From the NCBI RefSeq assembly GCF_003574735.1, contig NZ_QORW01000001.1, positions 124,001 through 188,000 on the forward strand: a stretch of 64,000 nt of DNA, read 5' to 3'. The notes beneath the pieces are model-generated. The model was given only the letters and a program-made list of their open reading frames with translations. It did no database searches and had not been told where the DNA came from. Positions 26,235-33,307 of the stretch are shown piece after piece (position 1 is the first letter of the stretch; every line of letters begins with the position of its first letter). The position numbers and the translations under genes were made by a program. This DNA is from Dongia deserti. Lineage in GTDB: Bacteria > Pseudomonadota > Alphaproteobacteria > Dongiales > Dongiaceae.

Positions 26235-27107
26235 ATGAAGGGTGAAAAGAACGCCGGCGTCAAACGCTCACGCCAAACAAGCGCTGGCCTTGGAAGGCCA
26301 GGCGGGAGCCGCGAAACCTATTCGGACTTCCTGCAGCTGGACATCCTGCTCAATCTGCAGGCGACGTTGCATGATCCGCCGCAGCGCGACGAATTGCTGT
26401 TCATCGTGATCCATCAGGTGAGCGAATTGTGGCTGAAGCTGATGCATCATGAGCTCAGCGAGGCGCGGCGCGAGATCGCGCAGGACGAGCTGCCGCAGGC
26501 GCTGAAGCATTTCGCGCGGGTGAAGGCGATCCAGGAGCAGTTGATCGCCGCCTGGAAAGTGCTGAACACCATGACGCCGGCCGACTATCTGGAGTTCCGC
26601 CACGTGCTCGGCACATCCTCCGGATTCCAGAGCTGGGGCTATCGGCTGGTCGAATACATCCTCGGCAACAAGGATGCGTCCTACATCGACGTTCATCGGC
26701 GCGACCCCAAGATCGTTGCACGCCTGGAAGCGGTCCTGGCTGAACCGTCGCTCTACGACGAGGTCCTGCGGCTGCTGGCGCGGCGCGGCTTCAAGCTGCC
26801 GGCGACGGTCGTCAAGCGCGATTGGCGCAAGCCATTCGCCGGGCACAAGGCTGCGGTCGAGGCCTGGCTTACCATCTATCGCCATCCGCGCGATCATTGG
26901 GAGCTCTACGACCTCGCCGAGAAGCTGATGGACATGGAGATGCTGTTCCAGCGCTGGCGCTTCGATCACGTAAGCGCCGTGGAGCGTGTCATCGGCCATC
27001 AGCCCGGGACAGGCGGCTCCAGCGGCGTTGCGTTCCTCAAGAAAGCGCTCGACCTGCGGTTCTTCCATGACCTCTATGAGGTGCGGAATCGCCTGATTTA
27101 TGGATAG
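26235..27107 (+). CDS. kynA: Tryptophan 2,3-dioxygenase
   Basis: Haem enzyme opening the indole ring of L-tryptophan to N-formylkynurenine, first step of the kynurenine pathway, 290 aa. Diagnostic blocks are YSDFLQLDILLNLQ, RDELLFIVIHQVSELWLKLM and the C-terminal RFDHVSAVERVIGHQPGTGG with GSSGVAFL, containing the proximal His region. No kynureninase or formamidase gene is adjacent. The PLP dehydratase follows 9 bp downstream, so the two are probably co-transcribed. Confidence 0.96.
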   Translation: MKGEKNAGVKRSRQTSAGLGRPGGSRETYSDFLQLDILLNLQATLHDPPQRDELLFIVIHQVSELWLKLMHHELSEARREIAQDELPQALKHFARVKAIQEQLIAAWKVLNTMTPADYLEFRHVLGTSSGFQSWGYRLVEYILGNKDASYIDVHRRDPKIVARLEAVLAEPSLYDEVLRLLARRGFKLPATVVKRDWRKPFAGHKAAVEAWLTIYRHPRDHWELYDLAEKLMDMEMLFQRWRFDHVSAVERVIGHQPGTGGSSGVAFLKKALDLRFFHDLYEVRNRLIYG

Positions 27108-27116
27108 GACGCAGCC

Positions 27117-28112
27117 ATGAACAAAAACTGGCCCACGCTTTCCGACATCCGCGCGACGCAGGCGTTGCTGGCGCCGCATGTGGTGCGCACGCCGACGGTG
27201 CCGTGGGTGTCACCAACACTGGAGCGGCTGCTTGGCAATGATGCCAAGCTGTTCCTGAAGCTCGAGCTGTTCCAGGTGACCGGCACGTTCAAGGCGCGCG
27301 GGGCGTTGACTTGGGCGTTGTCGCTGACGCCCGAGCAGAAAGGGCGCGGCATCACGGCGGTCAGCGCCGGCAATCACGCGATCGCCGCCGCCTTCGCGGC
27401 CAAGGCGGTGGGCGCGCCCGCCAAGATCATCGTGCTGAAAAGCGCCAACCCTCTGCGCCTCGCCATGGCACGAGACCTGGGTGCGGACATCGTGATCGCG
27501 GAGAACGGGCCTGAAGGCTTTGCGATTGCCGACCGGCTGGTGAAGGAAGAGGGCTTGACCTTCATCCATCCGTTCGACGGACCCAATGTCGCACGGGGCA
27601 CCGGCACCTTGGGTGCGGAGATCGCGGACGACGTGCCGGACCTGGATGCCGTGGTGGTCGCGGTCGGCGGCGGAGGTCTCGCATCCGGCATGGCGCGGGC
27701 GATCAAGCTGCTGCAGCCCACCTGCAAGGTCTATGGCGTCGAGCCGGTCGGCGCGCCCAAAATGCGCCGTTCGTTCGATGAGGGCGCGCCAGTGAAGCTG
27801 GACCGCATCGACACGATCGCGGATTCGCTCGCGCCACCGATGTCGCTGCCCTACGGCTTCGAACTGGCGCGCGCGCACATGGACGACATCGTGCTGGTCG
27901 ACGACGATGCCATGTGCGCCGCGCTGGCTCTGCTGCAGACAGAGGCCAAGCTGGCAGTCGAGCCGGCTGCGGCGGCTGCGACCGCGGCCGCCATGGGACC
28001 ACTGCGCGAGCGCCTTGCCGGCAAGCGCGTCTGCCTCGTCATCTGCGGCGCCAACATCGATGCGGAGACCTATGGCGCTCTGCTGGCGCGCGGCCGGCGA
28101 AACCTGGCCTGA
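27117..28112 (+). CDS. PLP-dependent threonine/serine dehydratase-like protein
   Basis: Fold-type II PLP enzyme, 331 aa. The Schiff-base lysine is in FQVTGTFKARGA, the cofactor asparagine loop in SAGNHAIAAAFAA, and the glycine-rich phosphate loop in VAVGGGGLASGMA. Length matches single-domain catabolic threonine/serine dehydratases without an ACT domain; hydroxyaspartate dehydratase or serine racemase are alternatives. It follows kynA closely. Part of its 3' half (27811 to about 27930) recurs as a frameshifted fragment at 33320, beyond the carbohydrate operon. Confidence 0.88.
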   Translation: MNKNWPTLSDIRATQALLAPHVVRTPTVPWVSPTLERLLGNDAKLFLKLELFQVTGTFKARGALTWALSLTPEQKGRGITAVSAGNHAIAAAFAAKAVGAPAKIIVLKSANPLRLAMARDLGADIVIAENGPEGFAIADRLVKEEGLTFIHPFDGPNVARGTGTLGAEIADDVPDLDAVVVAVGGGGLASGMARAIKLLQPTCKVYGVEPVGAPKMRRSFDEGAPVKLDRIDTIADSLAPPMSLPYGFELARAHMDDIVLVDDDAMCAALALLQTEAKLAVEPAAAAATAAAMGPLRERLAGKRVCLVICGANIDAETYGALLARGRRNLA

Positions 28113-28188
28113 TCACCGCCTCGCTCCTCCTGCACAAGTGTGACCGTTAGAGGGTCGCCGGCTCCGTCAGAAGACCCCGGCCCCGCAA

Positions 28189-28265
28189 AATAGTCCTGTT
28201 GCAAAATGTTGACTATTGAGCGATTTTGCCAATATTCGACCGTCAGGATTGCGAATTATTGCAAT
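28189..28265. promoter_or_regulatory. Candidate promoter/operator region of the carbohydrate operon
   Basis: AT-rich patch in GC-rich surroundings just before the first operon gene. It holds a perfect 7-bp dyad (AATAGTC at 28189-28195, GACTATT at 28211-28217), a near-dyad TTGCAAAAT/ATTTTGCCAA (28199-28232) and an ATTGC/GCAAT dyad (28248-28265). The DeoR-family protein encoded in the operon is the obvious candidate ligand; that is inference. Confidence 0.45.
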
Positions 28266-28303: not shown

Positions 28304-28996
28304 GTGGATTTCATTTTCATGCTCACGCGGCAGGACCGGACCATCGCCGACTGCCTGGCCGTGCTCGACCTCATCCTGCCGTTGAAGCTGCGGCACATCG
28401 GCTTCAAGGATGTCGGTGTCGACAAGCAGACGCTGAGCATGCTGGCGGAGCGCATCCGCAAGTCAGGCGCCATCTCTTACATGGAGGTTGTCAGCACCAG
28501 TCCGGAAGATGCGCTCAATTCCGCGCGTGTCGCCGTCGAGCTCGGCGTCGATCGGCTGTTGGGCGGCACCGACGTCGTGCGGACTCAGGAGATCCTGGGC
28601 GACAGCGGCATCTCCTATTTCCCGTTCTGCGGCTTCCCGAGCGGCCATCCGACCAGGCTCGGCGGGCGGCCGGACCAGATCGAGGCACATTGCCGCCGGT
28701 TCATCGCGCAGGGTTGTGCCGGGACCGACCTGCTGGCCTATCGCGCGACCTCGGCCGATCCGATCGAACTCGTCAAGGCGGCGCGCCGCGGTCTTGGAAA
28801 GAAATACTTGATCGTGGCTGGCAGCGTGTCCACGGCTGATCAGATCGCCGCGTTGCACCAGGCCGGGGCTGATGCCTTCACCATCGGATCGGCCGTGTTC
28901 GACGGCTCCTACGCCGAGAGTATGGGATCCATTGTGTCCCAGGTCGCCGCCATAGAGGCTGATTGTGCGGCCGCATCGAGAGCCGATGCTGGATGA
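28304..28996 (+). CDS. Beta/alpha-barrel protein, aldolase-like, function unassigned
   Basis: First gene of the operon, 230 aa. The sequence reads as a TIM barrel: regular strand/helix alternation, strand ends such as IGFKDVGV, LLGGTDVV and AGTDLLA, and a C-terminal phosphate-binding pair (IVAGSVSTADQI and AFTIGSAVF) typical of enzymes that bind phosphorylated substrates. A sugar-phosphate aldolase or epimerase role is plausible but no specific family signature is certain. GTG start at 28304 with GGAGG 4 nt upstream. The stop overlaps the deoR-like gene (ATGA). Confidence 0.7.
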   Translation: MDFIFMLTRQDRTIADCLAVLDLILPLKLRHIGFKDVGVDKQTLSMLAERIRKSGAISYMEVVSTSPEDALNSARVAVELGVDRLLGGTDVVRTQEILGDSGISYFPFCGFPSGHPTRLGGRPDQIEAHCRRFIAQGCAGTDLLAYRATSADPIELVKAARRGLGKKYLIVAGSVSTADQIAALHQAGADAFTIGSAVFDGSYAESMGSIVSQVAAIEADCAAASRADAG

Positions 28997-29796
28997 AGCC
29001 GATCGCCGAATTGAGGGACTCACGCGTGCTCGCCGAAGAACGACAGCGACTTATCCTCTCGATGGTGAATGATCGAGGCTCGATCTCCATCACGGAGATC
29101 CAGCGCAAGCTGAACGTCTCGCGCGAGACTATCCGCCGCGACCTGGTCGCCATGGCTGACAGCCAGCTTCTGCGCAAGACTCACGGTGGCGCACTTTCGC
29201 TGGAGCAGCGCGAGCCAGAGATGGCGGTACGCCAAGTCACCAATATCGAGGCCAAGCGCGCCATCGGCCGCTTGGCCGCCGGCCTGGTGCCCGACGGCGC
29301 ATCGGTGATCCTGGCCAGCGGAACCACCACCCAAGCGGTCGCTGAGGCCTTGATGGCACGGCGCGAGTTGACGGTCTTCACCAATAGCGTCTTCATCTGC
29401 GGGAAGTTGATGGGACGCAACGGCAACCGCGTCTACATGCTGGGCGGCGAGATCCAGCCAAGCAATGGCGCCACCCTGGGTCGCGATGCCACCGAGATGC
29501 TGGCACACTATTTCGCGGATTTCGGCTTCATCGGAGCGGGCGCGATCTCGCCGGCCGGCTGGCTGATGGACTACACGCGTGAAGAGGGTGAGTTGCATAG
29601 CCGCATACTGATGACCGCCCGCACCGCCGCTGTCGTCGCCGATCACGGAAAGTTCGGGCGCTTCGCCCCGATCCGCGTCGGCAATTTCGAGAGGGCAACA
29701 CACCTGATCACGGATGTGACGCCGGAGCCCGAAATCACCAATGCACTGGCCCATCTGCCGCTCGAGGTCCTGGTTGCGGACAAGGACACCGCCTGA
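28993..29796 (+). CDS. DeoR/GlpR-family transcriptional regulator
   Basis: Sugar-phosphate-responsive repressor, 267 aa. The N-terminal winged helix contains ISITEIQRKLNVSRETIRRDL, the DeoR recognition helix, followed by KTHGGAL. The C-terminal DeoRC sensor domain has DGASVILASGTTT and the VVADHGKFGRF motif of the phosphosugar-binding fold. ATG at 28993 overlaps the preceding stop. Encoded inside the operon, it is the likely autorepressor acting at dyads near 28189-28265. Confidence 0.92.
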   Translation: MKPIAELRDSRVLAEERQRLILSMVNDRGSISITEIQRKLNVSRETIRRDLVAMADSQLLRKTHGGALSLEQREPEMAVRQVTNIEAKRAIGRLAAGLVPDGASVILASGTTTQAVAEALMARRELTVFTNSVFICGKLMGRNGNRVYMLGGEIQPSNGATLGRDATEMLAHYFADFGFIGAGAISPAGWLMDYTREEGELHSRILMTARTAAVVADHGKFGRFAPIRVGNFERATHLITDVTPEPEITNALAHLPLEVLVADKDTA

Positions 29797-29818
29797 TCGG
29801 CAAGAACGGAGTCTGATC

Positions 29819-30478
29819 GTGAAATACGAAACGGAGCGGCGCGACATCGTCAAGGCATGCTTGTACATGAATCGCCGGGGCATCAATCAAGGGACGTCCG
29901 GCAATATCAGCGTACGCGTGAACGAAGGATTCCTGCTCACGCCCTCCGGCATGGCTTATGACGAGATGAAGGCGAGCGACATCGTGCTGATGCGGCCCGA
30001 CGGCAGTCATGTCGGCAAGCGCAAGCCGTCCAGTGAATGGCGGTTTCATCACGCACTGATGACGAGCCGTGCGGAAATCAGCGCGGTGGTGCACACCCAT
30101 TCCATGTTCGCGACGACCCTCTCCTGCCTCGGCCTCGAGAGCCCGGCCATGCATTACATGATCGCGGCCGCCGGTGGGGGAAACATCCGGTGCGCGCCTT
30201 ATGCCACCTACGGGACCCAAGAGACCGCCGACAACGCGGTGAAAGCGCTTCAGGACCGCAATGCCTGCCTGCTCGCCAATCACGGCATGATCGTCGTTGG
30301 ACGCAATCTCAAGAAGGCGATGTGGCTGGCGGTCGAGGTGGAGACCTTGGCCGCGCAATACTGGCGTGCGCTGCAGGTCGGCAAACCCAACATCCTGCCG
30401 AAAGCGGAGGTTCGTCGCGTCATGGACAAGTTCAAGACCTACGGTCAGGTCGGAGAACCGGTGGCCGCATGCTGCTAG
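29819..30478 (+). CDS. Class II aldolase/adducin-family protein (L-fuculose-phosphate-aldolase-like)
   Basis: Zinc-dependent aldolase fold, 219 aa. It has NQGTSGNISVRV (phosphate loop), TPSGMAYDEM, SSEWRFHHALM (catalytic Glu), the zinc pair in VVHTHSMFAT and the third zinc His in LLANHGMIVVG. It probably cleaves a ketose 1-phosphate to DHAP and an aldehyde, or the reverse. GTG at 29819 has GGAG 7 nt upstream. It lies 22 bp after deoR and is followed by an FGGY kinase, the usual kinase-then-aldolase logic of deoxysugar or tetritol catabolism. Confidence 0.9.
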   Translation: MKYETERRDIVKACLYMNRRGINQGTSGNISVRVNEGFLLTPSGMAYDEMKASDIVLMRPDGSHVGKRKPSSEWRFHHALMTSRAEISAVVHTHSMFATTLSCLGLESPAMHYMIAAAGGGNIRCAPYATYGTQETADNAVKALQDRNACLLANHGMIVVGRNLKKAMWLAVEVETLAAQYWRALQVGKPNILPKAEVRRVMDKFKTYGQVGEPVAACC

Positions 30479-30513
30479 CATACGTCGCCTCTGTCAGCGA
30501 AGGCTGAGCCGGC

Positions 30514-31980
30514 ATGCTCGTCGGCGCCGACATCGGCACGCAGAGCCTCAAGGTTGTGATCCTTGACCCGGCGCTGCGGATCGTCGGTCAGTCGGCGAAG
30601 TGCTATCGGCCGAGCTACCCGAAACCCGGATGGGTCGAACAGGCGCCCACCTTGTGGACGGACGCGTTGGGGCCGGCCATCTCCGAAGCGCTCAGCTCCG
30701 CAGAGGTCGCACCGACCGAGATAAAGGCCATGGGATTTTGCGGCCAGCTGGACGGCTGCATCGCGGTCGATGCCAGCGGCGCGCCCTTGTCGCCATGCCT
30801 GATCTGGATGGACCGGCGCGCGACCGCCGAAATTGAAGATATCCCGGCCGCTCTGGTGCGCGACGAATGCGGATTGGTGCTGGATCCCGGCCATCTCGCG
30901 GCGAAAGCGCGCTGGCTGGCACGGCACCTGGGCCGCGAGGCGGCGATCGCGCGATTTCACCAGCCGGTTTCCTACGTGGTCGAGCAGCTGACCGGAATCG
31001 CGGTCATCGGTCACGCGCTGGCATCGACCAGCATGCTCTATTGCCTCGATCGTCGCGGCTATGCGCAGGCCTTGCTCGACAGGTTCGAGTTGTCCGAAAC
31101 GCAGTTGCCACCGATCGCCGAAGCGGAAACGTGCGCCGGCCGCATCAACCAGCGCGGCGCAGCGCTGACCGGTCTGCCTGCGGGCTTGCCGGTGGCGGTC
31201 GGAACCGGCGATGACTTCGGGACACCGCTCGGCGCCGGTTTCAATGCACCCGGCCGGGTCGCCGTGGTTCTCGGCACCGGCGAGGTTGTCGGCGGCCTGC
31301 ACCCGGTGGCCTTGCGCGACGAGAGCGGATTGCTGGAAACGCATGCCTATCCCGGCGGCGCCTTCTTCATCGAGAATCCGGGTTGGTTCTCCGGTGGCGC
31401 CGTTGCCTGGATCAGCCAGCTCTTGAATGTTCCGGATCTCACCGCCCTCAACGCCCTCGCAGCCCAGGCGCCCGCTGGCGCTGCCGGCCTCAGCTTCATA
31501 CCGGCCCTGACCGGCGCGATGGCGCCCGAGTGGCAGCCCAGCGCACGGGGTTGCTTCTACGGCATGACTCCGGCCCATGGCCGCGAGCACATGATCCGCG
31601 CGGTGCTGGAAGGATGCGCGTTCGCCATGCGCGACGTCGTCGATCGCCTTGAGCAGATGGGCGTTGCGACGCGCTCCCTGCTGCTGATCGGCGGTGGTGC
31701 GCATAGCCGCCTCTGGTCACAGATGCGCGCGGATATCGTGCAGCGCCCTGCTGAACTGCCGCAACGCGTCGACAGCGCTCCGGTCGGCGCCGCCCTCCTG
31801 GCCGCAGTCGCGGGAGGCGTCGCGCGCGATCTGAACGAGGCCGTCGGCGCGCTCTCGGATGAGCACACCGAGATCGACCCAAGTCCGCGGGAAGCGTCCG
31901 CGTATGACGAGGCATACGACAAGTATCGCCAGCTGTTCCGCTCACTCAGGCCGCTCTTCGTGCAGCAGCAAAGCGACTAA
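30514..31980 (+). CDS. FGGY-family carbohydrate kinase
   Basis: ATP-dependent sugar or polyol kinase, 488 aa, with both actin-like domains: N-terminal LVGADIGTQSLKVVILDP, the substrate-side WMDRRATAE, and C-terminal VAVVLGTGEVVGG and LLLIGGGAHSRLWSQM. Overall pattern is nearest to xylulokinase-like members. In context it should phosphorylate the sugar later cleaved by the class II aldolase. It starts 35 bp after that gene. Confidence 0.92.
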   Translation: MLVGADIGTQSLKVVILDPALRIVGQSAKCYRPSYPKPGWVEQAPTLWTDALGPAISEALSSAEVAPTEIKAMGFCGQLDGCIAVDASGAPLSPCLIWMDRRATAEIEDIPAALVRDECGLVLDPGHLAAKARWLARHLGREAAIARFHQPVSYVVEQLTGIAVIGHALASTSMLYCLDRRGYAQALLDRFELSETQLPPIAEAETCAGRINQRGAALTGLPAGLPVAVGTGDDFGTPLGAGFNAPGRVAVVLGTGEVVGGLHPVALRDESGLLETHAYPGGAFFIENPGWFSGGAVAWISQLLNVPDLTALNALAAQAPAGAAGLSFIPALTGAMAPEWQPSARGCFYGMTPAHGREHMIRAVLEGCAFAMRDVVDRLEQMGVATRSLLLIGGGAHSRLWSQMRADIVQRPAELPQRVDSAPVGAALLAAVAGGVARDLNEAVGALSDEHTEIDPSPREASAYDEAYDKYRQLFRSLRPLFVQQQSD

Positions 31981-32002
31981 ACAAAAACAAGGACATTCTG
32001 GG

Positions 32003-33307
32003 ATGCCTCCAGACATCATTGATCGGCTGATCGCCGGGACCTATCCGGACCCGGATGGCGGGCCCCCGCTCCGCGTGCAGACCCGGGCGGTGACCCTTGG
32101 CCGATCTTTGGCCGGCGCCGAGGCAGAGCTCATCCGGCCATTGGCGCTCGGTCGGCGCTTGGCCGTGGTCAGCGATCCGACGACGCATGCCGTCCTTGGC
32201 GCGCGCGTCGAGAGCGCCCTGAAGAGCCTCGGCAAGGTAGAGAGCGTCGTGCTGCCAAACCGTCCGCATGCGGACACCGAGACCGTCGCGCGGATCTGCG
32301 CCGCGACGCGATCCGCGGATGCGCTGATCGCCGTCGGCTCCGGAACGATCAATGACCTGTGCAAGTATGCCAGCGCGTGCGATCGCAAACCCTATGCGGT
32401 GTTCGCCACTGCGCCGTCTATGAATGGCTATACTTCGCTGAATGCTGCCATAACGGTCGACGGATTGAAAAAGTCATTGCCTGCGCAGGCGCCGGTCGGC
32501 GCGTTCTTTGACCTTTCGATCCTCGCCGCGGCACCGGTCCGGATGATCCGCTCGGGCCTCGGCGACAGTCTCTGCCGCTCCACCGCTCAGACCGATTGGC
32601 TGCTCGCGCACCTGTTGTTCGACCAGCCCTATCGCACCATGCCGTTCGCCCTGCTCGCCGATGACGAGCCGGAGCTGTTCGCGTCCGCCGGGGCGCCGAT
32701 GAAAGGCGATCTCGAGGCGATGGAGAAGCTGGTGCGCACGCTGCTCCTGTCCGGTTTTGGAACGGCGATCTGCGGCACGTCGCTGCCCGCGAGCCAAGGC
32801 GAACATCTCATCAGCCATTACGGCGACATGCTGCAAGAGCCCGGCCGTCCCTTCTCGCTTCATGGCGAGCAGATTGGCGTCACCACCCTGACCATGGCCC
32901 GCCTGCAGGGCCGGATGCTGGATGGCCCGCCGCCAGTCGTCTCGGCCGACCACAGCTCCGAAGAGGACTTCATCGGCCTGTTTGGGGCGACGCTTGGGCG
33001 TTCCTGCTGGAAAGAATTCAGACTGAAACGCCTCACTGCGGAGATCGCCGAAGCCGTCAACCAGCGGATTGCCTCCCAATGGGAAGAGATACGCAACACG
33101 CTGGCTGCTAGTTTCGTGCGCGCCGAGGTGCTCGAAAGAGTGTTGAGAGAGGCGATTGCACCCCGTGCACCGGAAGATCTCGGCTGGTCGCGCGCTTCAT
33201 ACAGCGAGGCGGTGCGCCATGCGCGAAAGATCCGCAATCGCTACACGTTCCTGGATTTCGCGGCTGATGCGGGAATCCTGGAGAGCGCCATTCCCGAGAT
33301 CGCGTAG
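32003..33307 (+). CDS. sn-glycerol-1-phosphate-dehydrogenase-like (EgsA/AraM-type) oxidoreductase
   Basis: Iron-containing-alcohol-dehydrogenase fold, 434 aa. NAD-binding elements include LIAVGSGTINDLCKYAS and FATAPSMNGYTS. Metal-ligand regions are GLGDSLCRSTAQTDW, SQGEHLISHYGDM and LHGEQIGVTT, the Asp/His/His layout of glycerol-1-phosphate and dehydroquinate-synthase-like enzymes. In a bacterium the likely role is polyol- or sugar-phosphate oxidation rather than archaeal lipid synthesis. ATG at 32003 with AGGA about 9 nt upstream. Last intact gene of the operon. Confidence 0.88.
   Translation: MPPDIIDRLIAGTYPDPDGGPPLRVQTRAVTLGRSLAGAEAELIRPLALGRRLAVVSDPTTHAVLGARVESALKSLGKVESVVLPNRPHADTETVARICAATRSADALIAVGSGTINDLCKYASACDRKPYAVFATAPSMNGYTSLNAAITVDGLKKSLPAQAPVGAFFDLSILAAAPVRMIRSGLGDSLCRSTAQTDWLLAHLLFDQPYRTMPFALLADDEPELFASAGAPMKGDLEAMEKLVRTLLLSGFGTAICGTSLPASQGEHLISHYGDMLQEPGRPFSLHGEQIGVTTLTMARLQGRMLDGPPPVVSADHSSEEDFIGLFGATLGRSCWKEFRLKRLTAEIAEAVNQRIASQWEEIRNTLAASFVRAEVLERVLREAIAPRAPEDLGWSRASYSEAVRHARKIRNRYTFLDFAADAGILESAIPEIA

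Follow-up and report, generated by a model that had tools for sequence, protein, structure and literature searches.

Dongia deserti carries five intact reading frames, all on the + strand, at positions 28304-33307 of the window (the whole 64,000-nucleotide stretch of DNA that was analyzed). Our preferred reading, which we hold tentatively, is that they form a catabolic operon for some ketose or sugar alcohol, with a route that converges on DHAP and a barrel protein that would act on a triose phosphate. The gene families agree with those named in the preliminary description of this DNA: the DeoR, aldolase, FGGY and G1P dehydrogenase (G1PDH) domains score over their cut-offs, and the barrel protein has a weak match. 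The features are as follows.

28199..28232, + strand: imperfect palindrome read by eye, TTGCAAAAT-N15-ATTTTGCCAA, candidate DeoR operator in the barrel promoter
28209..28236, + strand: weak sigma-70-like promoter match overlapping the palindrome (9/12 positions agree with the consensus; chance alone predicts 0.9 such matches in the region)
28304..28996, + strand: orphan TIM barrel, candidate phosphate-binding protein, 230 aa (GTG start, GGAGG upstream)
29026..29796, + strand: DeoR-family repressor, 256 aa counted from the GTG start (PF00455 146 bits, PF08220 56 bits)
29819..30478, + strand: FucA-type zinc class II aldolase, 219 aa (210 bits to an E. coli FucA structure)
30514..31980, + strand: FGGY sugar/polyol kinase of the GQLDG subgroup, 488 aa (308 bits to the xylulokinase (XylB) model TIGR01312, below its cut-off of 380)
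32003..33307, + strand: G1P dehydrogenase (AraM/EgsA) homologue, 434 aa (PF13685 119 bits; 136 bits to 9h4x)

Gene starts were refined against relatives (DeoR, GTG at 29026; aldolase, GTG at 29819; G1PDH homologue, ATG at 32003); the listed G1PDH frame from 31859 would overlap the kinase gene by about 120 nt. The resulting intergenic gaps are 29, 22, 35 and 22 nt, a spacing that suggests a single transcript. A simple terminator scan gave two terminator-like sites, both within the G1PDH gene and one of them on the + strand, with 3.0 expected by chance. In the relative G009, the barrel gene is in a separate unit, so members of the genus do not all keep the five genes together as one unit. The DeoR protein is 86% identical to the one that adjoins the aldolase, FGGY and G1PDH genes of G009, where the palindrome upstream of the barrel gene is kept with one mismatch. 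This palindrome is a candidate operator that DeoR may bind. Its strict pattern occurs at one place in the D. deserti genome, the barrel promoter, and because the palindrome was read off that site, its perfect match there and small chance figure are no test. A backwards control pattern also has one match in G009, and an inverted-repeat search at the barrel promoter returns another repeat (28184-28195 / 28211-28222) without the candidate operator.

How might such an operon work? First, DeoR would repress the barrel promoter, with a pathway intermediate relieving the repression. Second, the FGGY kinase would phosphorylate the substrate at C1, as expected from its family. Third, the G1PDH homologue would, by analogy with its family, either oxidize a polyol-1-phosphate at C2 or interconvert DHAP and sn-glycerol-1-phosphate (G1P) in either direction. 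Fourth, the FucA-type aldolase, whose residues are conserved, would cleave a ketose-1-phosphate to DHAP and an aldehyde. The barrel protein would then take DHAP or a derived triose phosphate, as its gene neighborhoods suggest. The combination of kinase and class II aldolase with DHAP as a product had already been proposed and is supported here, with the motif residues retained.

The aldolase (PF00596, 195 bits) has E73, H92, H94 and H155 aligned with E. coli FucA; by the numbering of FucA, we take these to be the catalytic Glu and the three zinc-binding His residues. It scores below the NCBIfam FucA cut-offs (TIGR01086, 229 vs 400; PRK08087, 244.5 vs 264). The two FGGY domains of the kinase score 143 and 117 bits. 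Its GQLDG motif replaces the GQMHG of 2itm, such that the xylulokinase His, presumably the substrate-contacting residue, is absent. GQLDG is present in 25/25 FGGY proteins scanned, namely the window's kinase and 24 from named barrel loci chosen at ≥380 bits to it. A plasmid search with this kinase at E 1e-60 returned nothing. The G1PDH homologue has an Fe-ADH_2 domain (PF13685, 118.8 bits vs a cut-off of 28), and its GLGD, GEHLISH and LHGEQ motifs align with 9h4x, 3ce9, 4rgq, 4rfl and 5fb3. D188, H268 and H287, presumably the metal ligands, fall in motifs common to solved G1PDHs. The protein is below the NCBIfam equivalog PRK00843 (167.7 bits vs 413).

The barrel protein is the novel part of the operon and appears to stand outside named families, consistent with its earlier description as an odd extra enzyme. 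A Pfam and NCBIfam search gave no family above its cut-off; its weak match is to IMPDH, at 19.9 bits vs 25.6. The AF2 model (pLDDT 97, pTM 0.93) has the ribulose-phosphate-binding barrel fold (RPE, OMPDC, KDPGal, ThiE), matching RPE 5umf (Z 18.8, rmsd 2.5 over 192) and OMPDC 4n2y (Z 19.3, rmsd 3.0 over 197). We rejected assigning a function from the fold, for which Foldseek and VIA-align give ties among many phosphate barrels and pyruvate kinases. The polar pocket residues T8, D11, K35, D36, E61, H115, D142 and R147 are invariant in a 64-row alignment, and these conserved charged residues point to sugar-phosphate chemistry. Specific activities were also considered. KDPG-type class I aldolases have their Lys on the sixth strand; such an activity was rejected because the invariant Lys of the barrel is on the second strand. 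Prenyl transfer with G1P, as in PcrB/GGGPS, was rejected because the match to TIGR01768 (GGGP/heptaprenylglyceryl phosphate synthase, PcrB) is below the cut-off (18.7 bits vs 113) and limited to the C-terminal phosphate-binding part (residues 146-201).

Could the barrel protein be related to triosephosphate isomerase? PF00121 (TpiA) gave no match to the barrel at E 0.001, or to the 64 alignment members at E 0.01, which speaks against TpiA homology at the sensitivity of the search, not against the activity. Replacement of triosephosphate isomerase, judged by gene absence, found no support: TpiA (PF00121) is missing in 2/31 good barrel-carrying genomes vs 11/315 good genomes in the class sample (the sets overlap), and the D. 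deserti genome itself encodes TpiA. A search for TpiA in all reading frames of the barrel loci, L045-L124 included, found no match, a weak result because tpiA is usually single-copy.

The barrel family occurs in at least 31/385 sampled genomes of the class and at least 12/398 of the phylum, counts that are lower bounds because at most seven candidates per genome were scored. It is also found in Actinomycetota and, from metagenome-assembled genomes, in Myxococcota and Lentisphaerota. A Staphylococcus warneri homologue is 28% identical (L129), and a truncated homologue is found on a Streptomyces plasmid (L131); the surroundings of these two were uninformative.

Five enzyme types were treated as DHAP makers (G1PDH, GlpD, FucA-type, PdxA, DhaK). 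In 47/80 named loci, one or more of them is found no farther than 5 kb from the barrel gene, and any of them lies farther away in 1/80 (685 kb near, 534 kb far), a contrast that is partly by construction since the five types were picked after the neighborhoods had been viewed. The partners within 5 kb are G1PDH in 33 loci, PdxA in 10, GlpD in 8, FucA-type in 4 and DhaK in 1. A G1PDH homologue is found in the outer parts of none of the 80 loci, and the barrel–G1PDH association exceeds chance; the loci are related, so these counts are not independent. In the other 33 loci, this 5-kb range contains no member of the five types. Eleven of these loci form a single clade in which an SDR gene follows the barrel gene, and some have a kinase alone. 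Many contigs are short, with 6 kb on both sides of the barrel in 43/80 loci.

Partner sets substitute for each other across barrel loci. For example, DUF1537 and PdxA lie beside the barrel in 10/80 loci, and none has both G1PDH and DUF1537. The PdxA contexts occur at separate places on the barrel tree, with two changes between G1PDH and PdxA labels, and actinomycete barrels with PdxA are 54-59% identical to that of the window. In seven plasmid barrel regions viewed, PdxA is present in five, with DUF1537 alongside in four. The textbook product of PdxA is an amino analogue of DHAP; DHAP is assumed for the PdxA loci because PdxA adjoins a DUF1537 kinase. Against that assumption, the one PdxA/DUF1537 pair tested, from Streptomyces, passes the pdxA cut-off (391 vs 290) and is below those for D-threonate 4-phosphate dehydrogenase (349.5 vs 583) and D-threonate kinase (174 vs 450). 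Deposited annotation gives several barrel homologues names like that of the adjacent PdxA. Together, the 47 loci with presumed DHAP makers near the barrel, the swapping of partners and the kept motifs support a DHAP-converging route.

A rather unlikely alternative is a linear polyol route, in which the FGGY kinase makes a polyol-1-phosphate, the G1PDH homologue oxidizes C2 to give a ketulose-1-phosphate, and the barrel is the isomerase or epimerase of that product (at C4 or C5), with the FucA-type aldolase an accessory in few loci. A core of barrel, G1PDH and FGGY often occurs without the aldolase (21/80 named loci have both G1PDH and FGGY; aldolase in 3), the regiochemistry of the G1PDH family suits a 1-phosphate, and RPE and other phosphate barrels are among the fold neighbors of the barrel. 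However, one metabolite would not explain the DUF1537/PdxA, GlpD and DhaK contexts unless it is DHAP, since decarboxylating a longer acid in the manner of PdxA would probably put the phosphate on the opposite end, and some loci have the barrel and G1PDH without an adjacent kinase (e.g., L066 and L049).

How does the operon compare with known systems? In Rhizobiales, the erythritol locus eryABCD resembles it in combining an FGGY kinase, a dehydrogenase, a barrel-type isomerase and a regulator. EryB resembles GlpD, and EryC comes from another barrel family; the window's operon instead includes a FucA-type aldolase and a homologue of G1PDH. Acid-sugar catabolism of the D-threonate type, with DUF1537 kinase and PdxA-type dehydrogenase, is reportedly the subject of a PNAS 2016 paper. 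The barrel is common to both systems, but the D-threonate type has an acid-sugar kinase, a decarboxylating dehydrogenase and a LysR regulator where the window has FGGY, aldolase and G1PDH. In B. subtilis, AraB is an FGGY kinase, AraD is a class II aldolase-fold enzyme that acts as an epimerase, and AraNPQ is an ABC sugar importer. In contrast to this epimerase, the window's aldolase keeps the FucA residues. The L-arabinose locus araABDLMNPQ-abfA has, like the window, an FGGY kinase, a class II aldolase-fold enzyme and a G1PDH. It shares the HAD phosphatase (AraL) and ABC importer with relatives of the window's operon but not with that operon itself, where neither AraA nor an ABC importer is among the five genes, the arabinan genes are missing, and a barrel and a DeoR repressor are extra. 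There is a precedent for a sugar operon that includes a G1PDH: araM lies in this B. subtilis operon according to the available parts of PMC5059525 and PMC3207120. The former calls the role of the AraM product unknown. Plasmids offer a further case: five rhizobial and one Acidiphilium plasmid (L152-L157) have an operon of FGGY, sugar-binding regulator, G1PDH, HAD-IIB, GlpD, ABC, SDR and aldolase. FGGY, regulator and G1PDH homologue (42-46% identical to that of the window) are adjacent in 6/6 regions viewed, aldolase is present in 6/6, and importer genes are present in 6/6 (just the binding protein in one). Barrel matches came from 23 plasmid records, none of which is one of these six accessions. 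The regulator of the six is annotated as a sugar-binding transcriptional regulator in place of DeoR, and their annotation names no substrate. Hence, of the earlier claim that the genes fit no textbook route, the part that concerns the extra barrel holds, while the misfit of G1PDH was overstated, given araM and these plasmid operons. An already characterized operon with the same five genes had been named as what would overturn the preliminary description; a search of titles and abstracts, with most subscription papers outside its reach, found none that deals with the barrel or with these five genes as a set.

The ara precedent also suggests side-product handling, in which kinase and aldolase carry out the catabolism, G1PDH (in relatives with a HAD phosphatase) drains excess DHAP to G1P or glycerol, and the barrel is part of the drain. 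AraL, from the araM-holding operon, has been proposed to clear accidental phosphorylated metabolites, although araL deletion left growth on arabinose unchanged (PMC3207120, available part). HAD genes are found no farther than 5 kb from the barrel in 21/80 loci, and G1PDH-HAD pairs occur in 5/6 of the L152-L157 plasmid regions. We consider this reading quite improbable: the window's operon has no HAD gene, the barrel is also found without G1PDH, and we know of no use here for G1P as an end product.

The operon encodes no transporter, as had been noted. An internal substrate or a remote transporter, the earlier explanation, was not supported. A PotD-type ABC importer adjoins the gene set in G009 and G005 and the barrel in G010. 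The D. deserti genome, which is 100% complete, lacks an orthologue of this importer's binding protein (best 32% identity); loss of the importer in this lineage is therefore likelier than an internally made substrate. G011, G001 and G016 likewise lack the binding protein (best 27-31%), so the loss reading rests on G009, G010 and G005. A genome-wide search for a remote co-regulated importer with the strict palindrome found none; a looser operator would escape this test. G009 has another importer, adjacent to the barrel; this one is uninformative on loss because it looks special to that genome: the best match in D. deserti is 27%, and among five other genomes two have no match and three have matches at 26-27%, with no orthologue in any. 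The substrate would enter otherwise after loss of the ancestral importer, or the operon may be on its way out. Taken further, the five genes would be a decaying remnant without present function. The genome-wide absence of the binding protein and the lack of a barrel in G011, of the same genus, fit such decay, but five intact frames, kept motif residues and a promoter palindrome conserved with G009 make it highly doubtful. Importer type may also vary with the kinase. A strong FGGY kinase accompanies MalFG/Ugp-like importers in 11/13 loci, Pot-like in 3/7, Afu/Fe-like in 1/5, a fourth type in 1/2 and Dpp-like in 0/1, in a small, related sample in which L046 is scored as a miss with its kinase cut by the contig end and L120 as MalFG/Ugp despite also holding Afu/Fe-like genes. 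AfuABC transports sugar phosphates (PMC4546632, available part), so versions that lack the kinase may take up a substrate that is already phosphorylated.

What are the wider implications? First, the barrel could be an unrecognized, DHAP-converting enzyme family of central carbon entry, such as a new DHAP aldolase or a triose-phosphate isomerase with no sequence relationship to TpiA. Many bacteria would then place it under the control of the particular pathway that oversupplies them with DHAP, be it from polyols, glycerol, acid sugars or dihydroxyacetone. This broader proposal is unlikely. Second, in the G1PDH group, the barrel may complete a mirror-image glycerol route, with the kinase making G1P, G1PDH making DHAP, and the barrel leading onwards. 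Third, assigning the barrel would help with several unassigned catabolic operons together. Finally, the operon bears on why bacteria retain archaeal-type G1PDH genes in sugar operons.

The operon at 28304-33307 is real, and reading frames and profile matches bear out the five genes and the family names that the preliminary description gave them (listed with corrected starts).

28304-28996, + strand, barrel (phosphate-binding TIM barrel protein, 230 aa)
29026-29796, + strand, DeoR regulator
29819-30478, + strand, FucA-type aldolase
30514-31980, + strand, FGGY kinase
32003-33307, + strand, G1PDH homologue

After start correction the gaps are 29, 22, 35 and 22 nt (5' to 3'), and the five genes are probably transcribed as one unit. 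At 0.646, the operon's G+C content is close to that of the window (0.636). In a profile scan the flanking genes are of the PLP-dependent dehydratase type (upstream) and M50/CBS protease-like (downstream), neither of them obviously part of the operon's pathway. Just 5' of the operon, at 26235-28112, a tryptophan 2,3-dioxygenase-like gene (recognized by eye) is followed by the PLP-dependent serine/threonine dehydratase-type gene.

What do the better-known members of the operon encode? The aldolase aligns over its full length with E. coli FucA and keeps Glu73, His92, His94 and His155 with the same numbering. It does not reach the NCBIfam L-fuculose-1-phosphate aldolase cut-offs, and therefore no substrate is assignable from them. 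For the kinase, the nearest family is xylulokinase (308 bits against a cut-off of 380), and its motif reads GQLDG where that of E. coli XylB reads GQMHG. GQLDG occurs in 25/25 kinases scanned, namely the window's own and 24 from named barrel loci that were chosen at ≥380 bits to it, a choice that in itself ensures their closeness. Aligned with solved G1PDHs, the G1PDH homologue retains their Asp/His/His motifs; its nearest solved structure by sequence is 9h4x.

G1PDH in a sugar operon is a recurrent, unexplained theme and no novelty of this operon, because the B. subtilis ara operon, six plasmid regions and a second locus in the D. deserti genome all pair G1PDH with sugar genes. B. subtilis AraM is reported to have G1PDH activity, its gene lying within the ara operon (PMC5059525). 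AraL, from the same operon (araABDLMNPQ-abfA), is described as a HAD phosphatase and proposed to remove accidental phosphorylated metabolites; growth on arabinose is reported as unchanged upon araL deletion (PMC3207120). On five rhizobial plasmids and one from Acidiphilium, FGGY, sugar-binding regulator and G1PDH homologue genes are adjacent in 6/6 regions viewed, together with aldolase and importer genes, HAD-IIB (in 5) and annotated glpD (in 4). The second D. deserti G1PDH homologue (locus L141, G000:C2:178000-193000) adjoins an FGGY kinase, an LsrR/DeoR-type regulator and ABC importer genes, and this is a separate polyol-type locus. A GolD/DthD-like SDR and a psicose-3-epimerase-like gene lie nearby, both below the cut-offs of those models.

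The barrel belongs to an enzyme family without assigned function. No Pfam or NCBIfam family matched it at or above cut-off, and the weaker matches fall mainly in its C-terminal half, the one that binds phosphate. Matches among the 64 alignment members are weak and mixed: GGGPS-type 35, His_biosynth 28 (best E 6e-7), TrpA 27, NanE 15, IMPDH 15 and PcrB 5. The AlphaFold2 model (pLDDT 97.0, pTM 0.93) has OMPDC, RPE, KDPGal, ThiE and pyruvate-kinase barrels as fold neighbours, with tied Z. T8, D11, K35, D36, E61, H115, D142 and R147 are invariant in 64/64 rows. A role as triosephosphate isomerase replacement, which predicts that carriers lack TpiA more often, gained no support: TpiA is present in the D. 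deserti genome, and is missing from 2/31 good carriers versus 11/315 of a class sample, no claimable difference.

The barrel has recurrent partners. Within 6 kb, the best 80 of 108 confirmed relatives (43 of these 80 loci having 6 kb on both sides) show strong G1PDH 33 times, ABC importer parts 31, DeoR 26, strong FGGY 24, HAD 18, and DUF1537 and PdxA 10 each; G1PDH and DUF1537 occur together in 0/80. A second search, at E 1e-12 and within 5 kb, found at least one of G1PDH, FucA-type aldolase, GlpD, PdxA and DhaK near 47/80 barrels and in the outer parts of 1/80 of the same loci (685 kb near, 534 kb far); since these five types were picked after the neighbourhoods had been viewed, the contrast shows local association, not DHAP as the link. 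A single clade, made up of Acidocella and its relatives, accounts for 11 of the 33 loci with no such partner; in these an SDR follows the barrel. At locus L119 the barrel is followed by a DhaK-like gene, which scores 338 bits (cut-off 406), and then a DhaL-like gene (by eye). A minimal form, barrel adjoining G1PDH homologue with no window-type kinase recognized beside the pair, is seen at L066 and L136.

Barrels also occur in 23 plasmid records. In the seven plasmid regions viewed, DUF1537 and PdxA precede the barrel in 4, PdxA alone in 1 and neither in 2. On plasmid L125 a cupin-domain protein contains the barrel, and on L127 a cupin gene adjoins the barrel. The barrels of L125-L128 and L130 are distant (~41-46% identity) and lie behind LysR-DUF1537-PdxA or LysR-PdxA. 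Several plasmid barrels are labelled "4-hydroxythreonine-4-phosphate dehydrogenase," apparently after the adjoining PdxA. PdxA contexts fall in separate places on the barrel tree, with labels changing twice between G1PDH and PdxA and 5 times between PdxA and all others (well-supported branches require at least 2 of these 5), in a quick tree with 30/88 inner branches open and long branches for L129 and L119.

DHAP may be the meeting point of these contexts. In standard biochemistry, G1PDH, GlpD, FucA-type aldolases and DhaK all make or use it. PdxA yields DHAP only in the acid-sugar branch, the biosynthetic product being an amino analogue. Where PdxA adjoins a DUF1537 kinase, the acid-sugar branch is suggested, but the Streptomyces pair scores above the pdxA cut-off and below the D-threonate cut-offs. 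Hence, the proposal has a real gap.

The window's operon has no importer, unlike some relatives. In G009, a genome of the same genus, the DeoR-aldolase-FGGY-G1PDH block shares 79% DNA identity with the window over 3.5 kb, as do the barrel and ~150 nt upstream at 76%; the two are separated by ~5 kb that holds a PotABCD-like importer and another DeoR-like gene. Another, divergent importer adjoins the G009 barrel; it is absent from the other six genomes searched and therefore uninformative on loss. The DeoR-like gene beside that barrel (L132:7738-8475) shows no clear N-terminal helix-turn-helix by eye, possibly through truncation or frameshift. G005, of the same family, has the order DeoR-aldolase-FGGY-G1PDH-barrel, with the importer divergent from DeoR. 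The binding protein of the PotABCD-like importer is found in G009, G005 (84%) and G010 (89%), where it is cut by a contig end and adjoins barrel, HAD and DeoR. It is absent from G011, G001 and G016 and also from D. deserti, where its best match is 32% identical and lies elsewhere. The importer may have been gained in the relatives; the simpler explanation is that the window's lineage lost it.

A palindrome in the barrel promoter is a candidate operator, conserved in G009 with 1 mismatch and found at a single place in the D. deserti genome at ≤3 mismatches; the backwards control pattern gave one match in G009. The preliminary description had considered a remote transporter. The palindrome search indicated no co-regulated remote importer; a looser operator would escape it.

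No description of the operon turned up among the titles and abstracts searched. Its novelty rests in one unassigned enzyme family within an otherwise known kind of operon.
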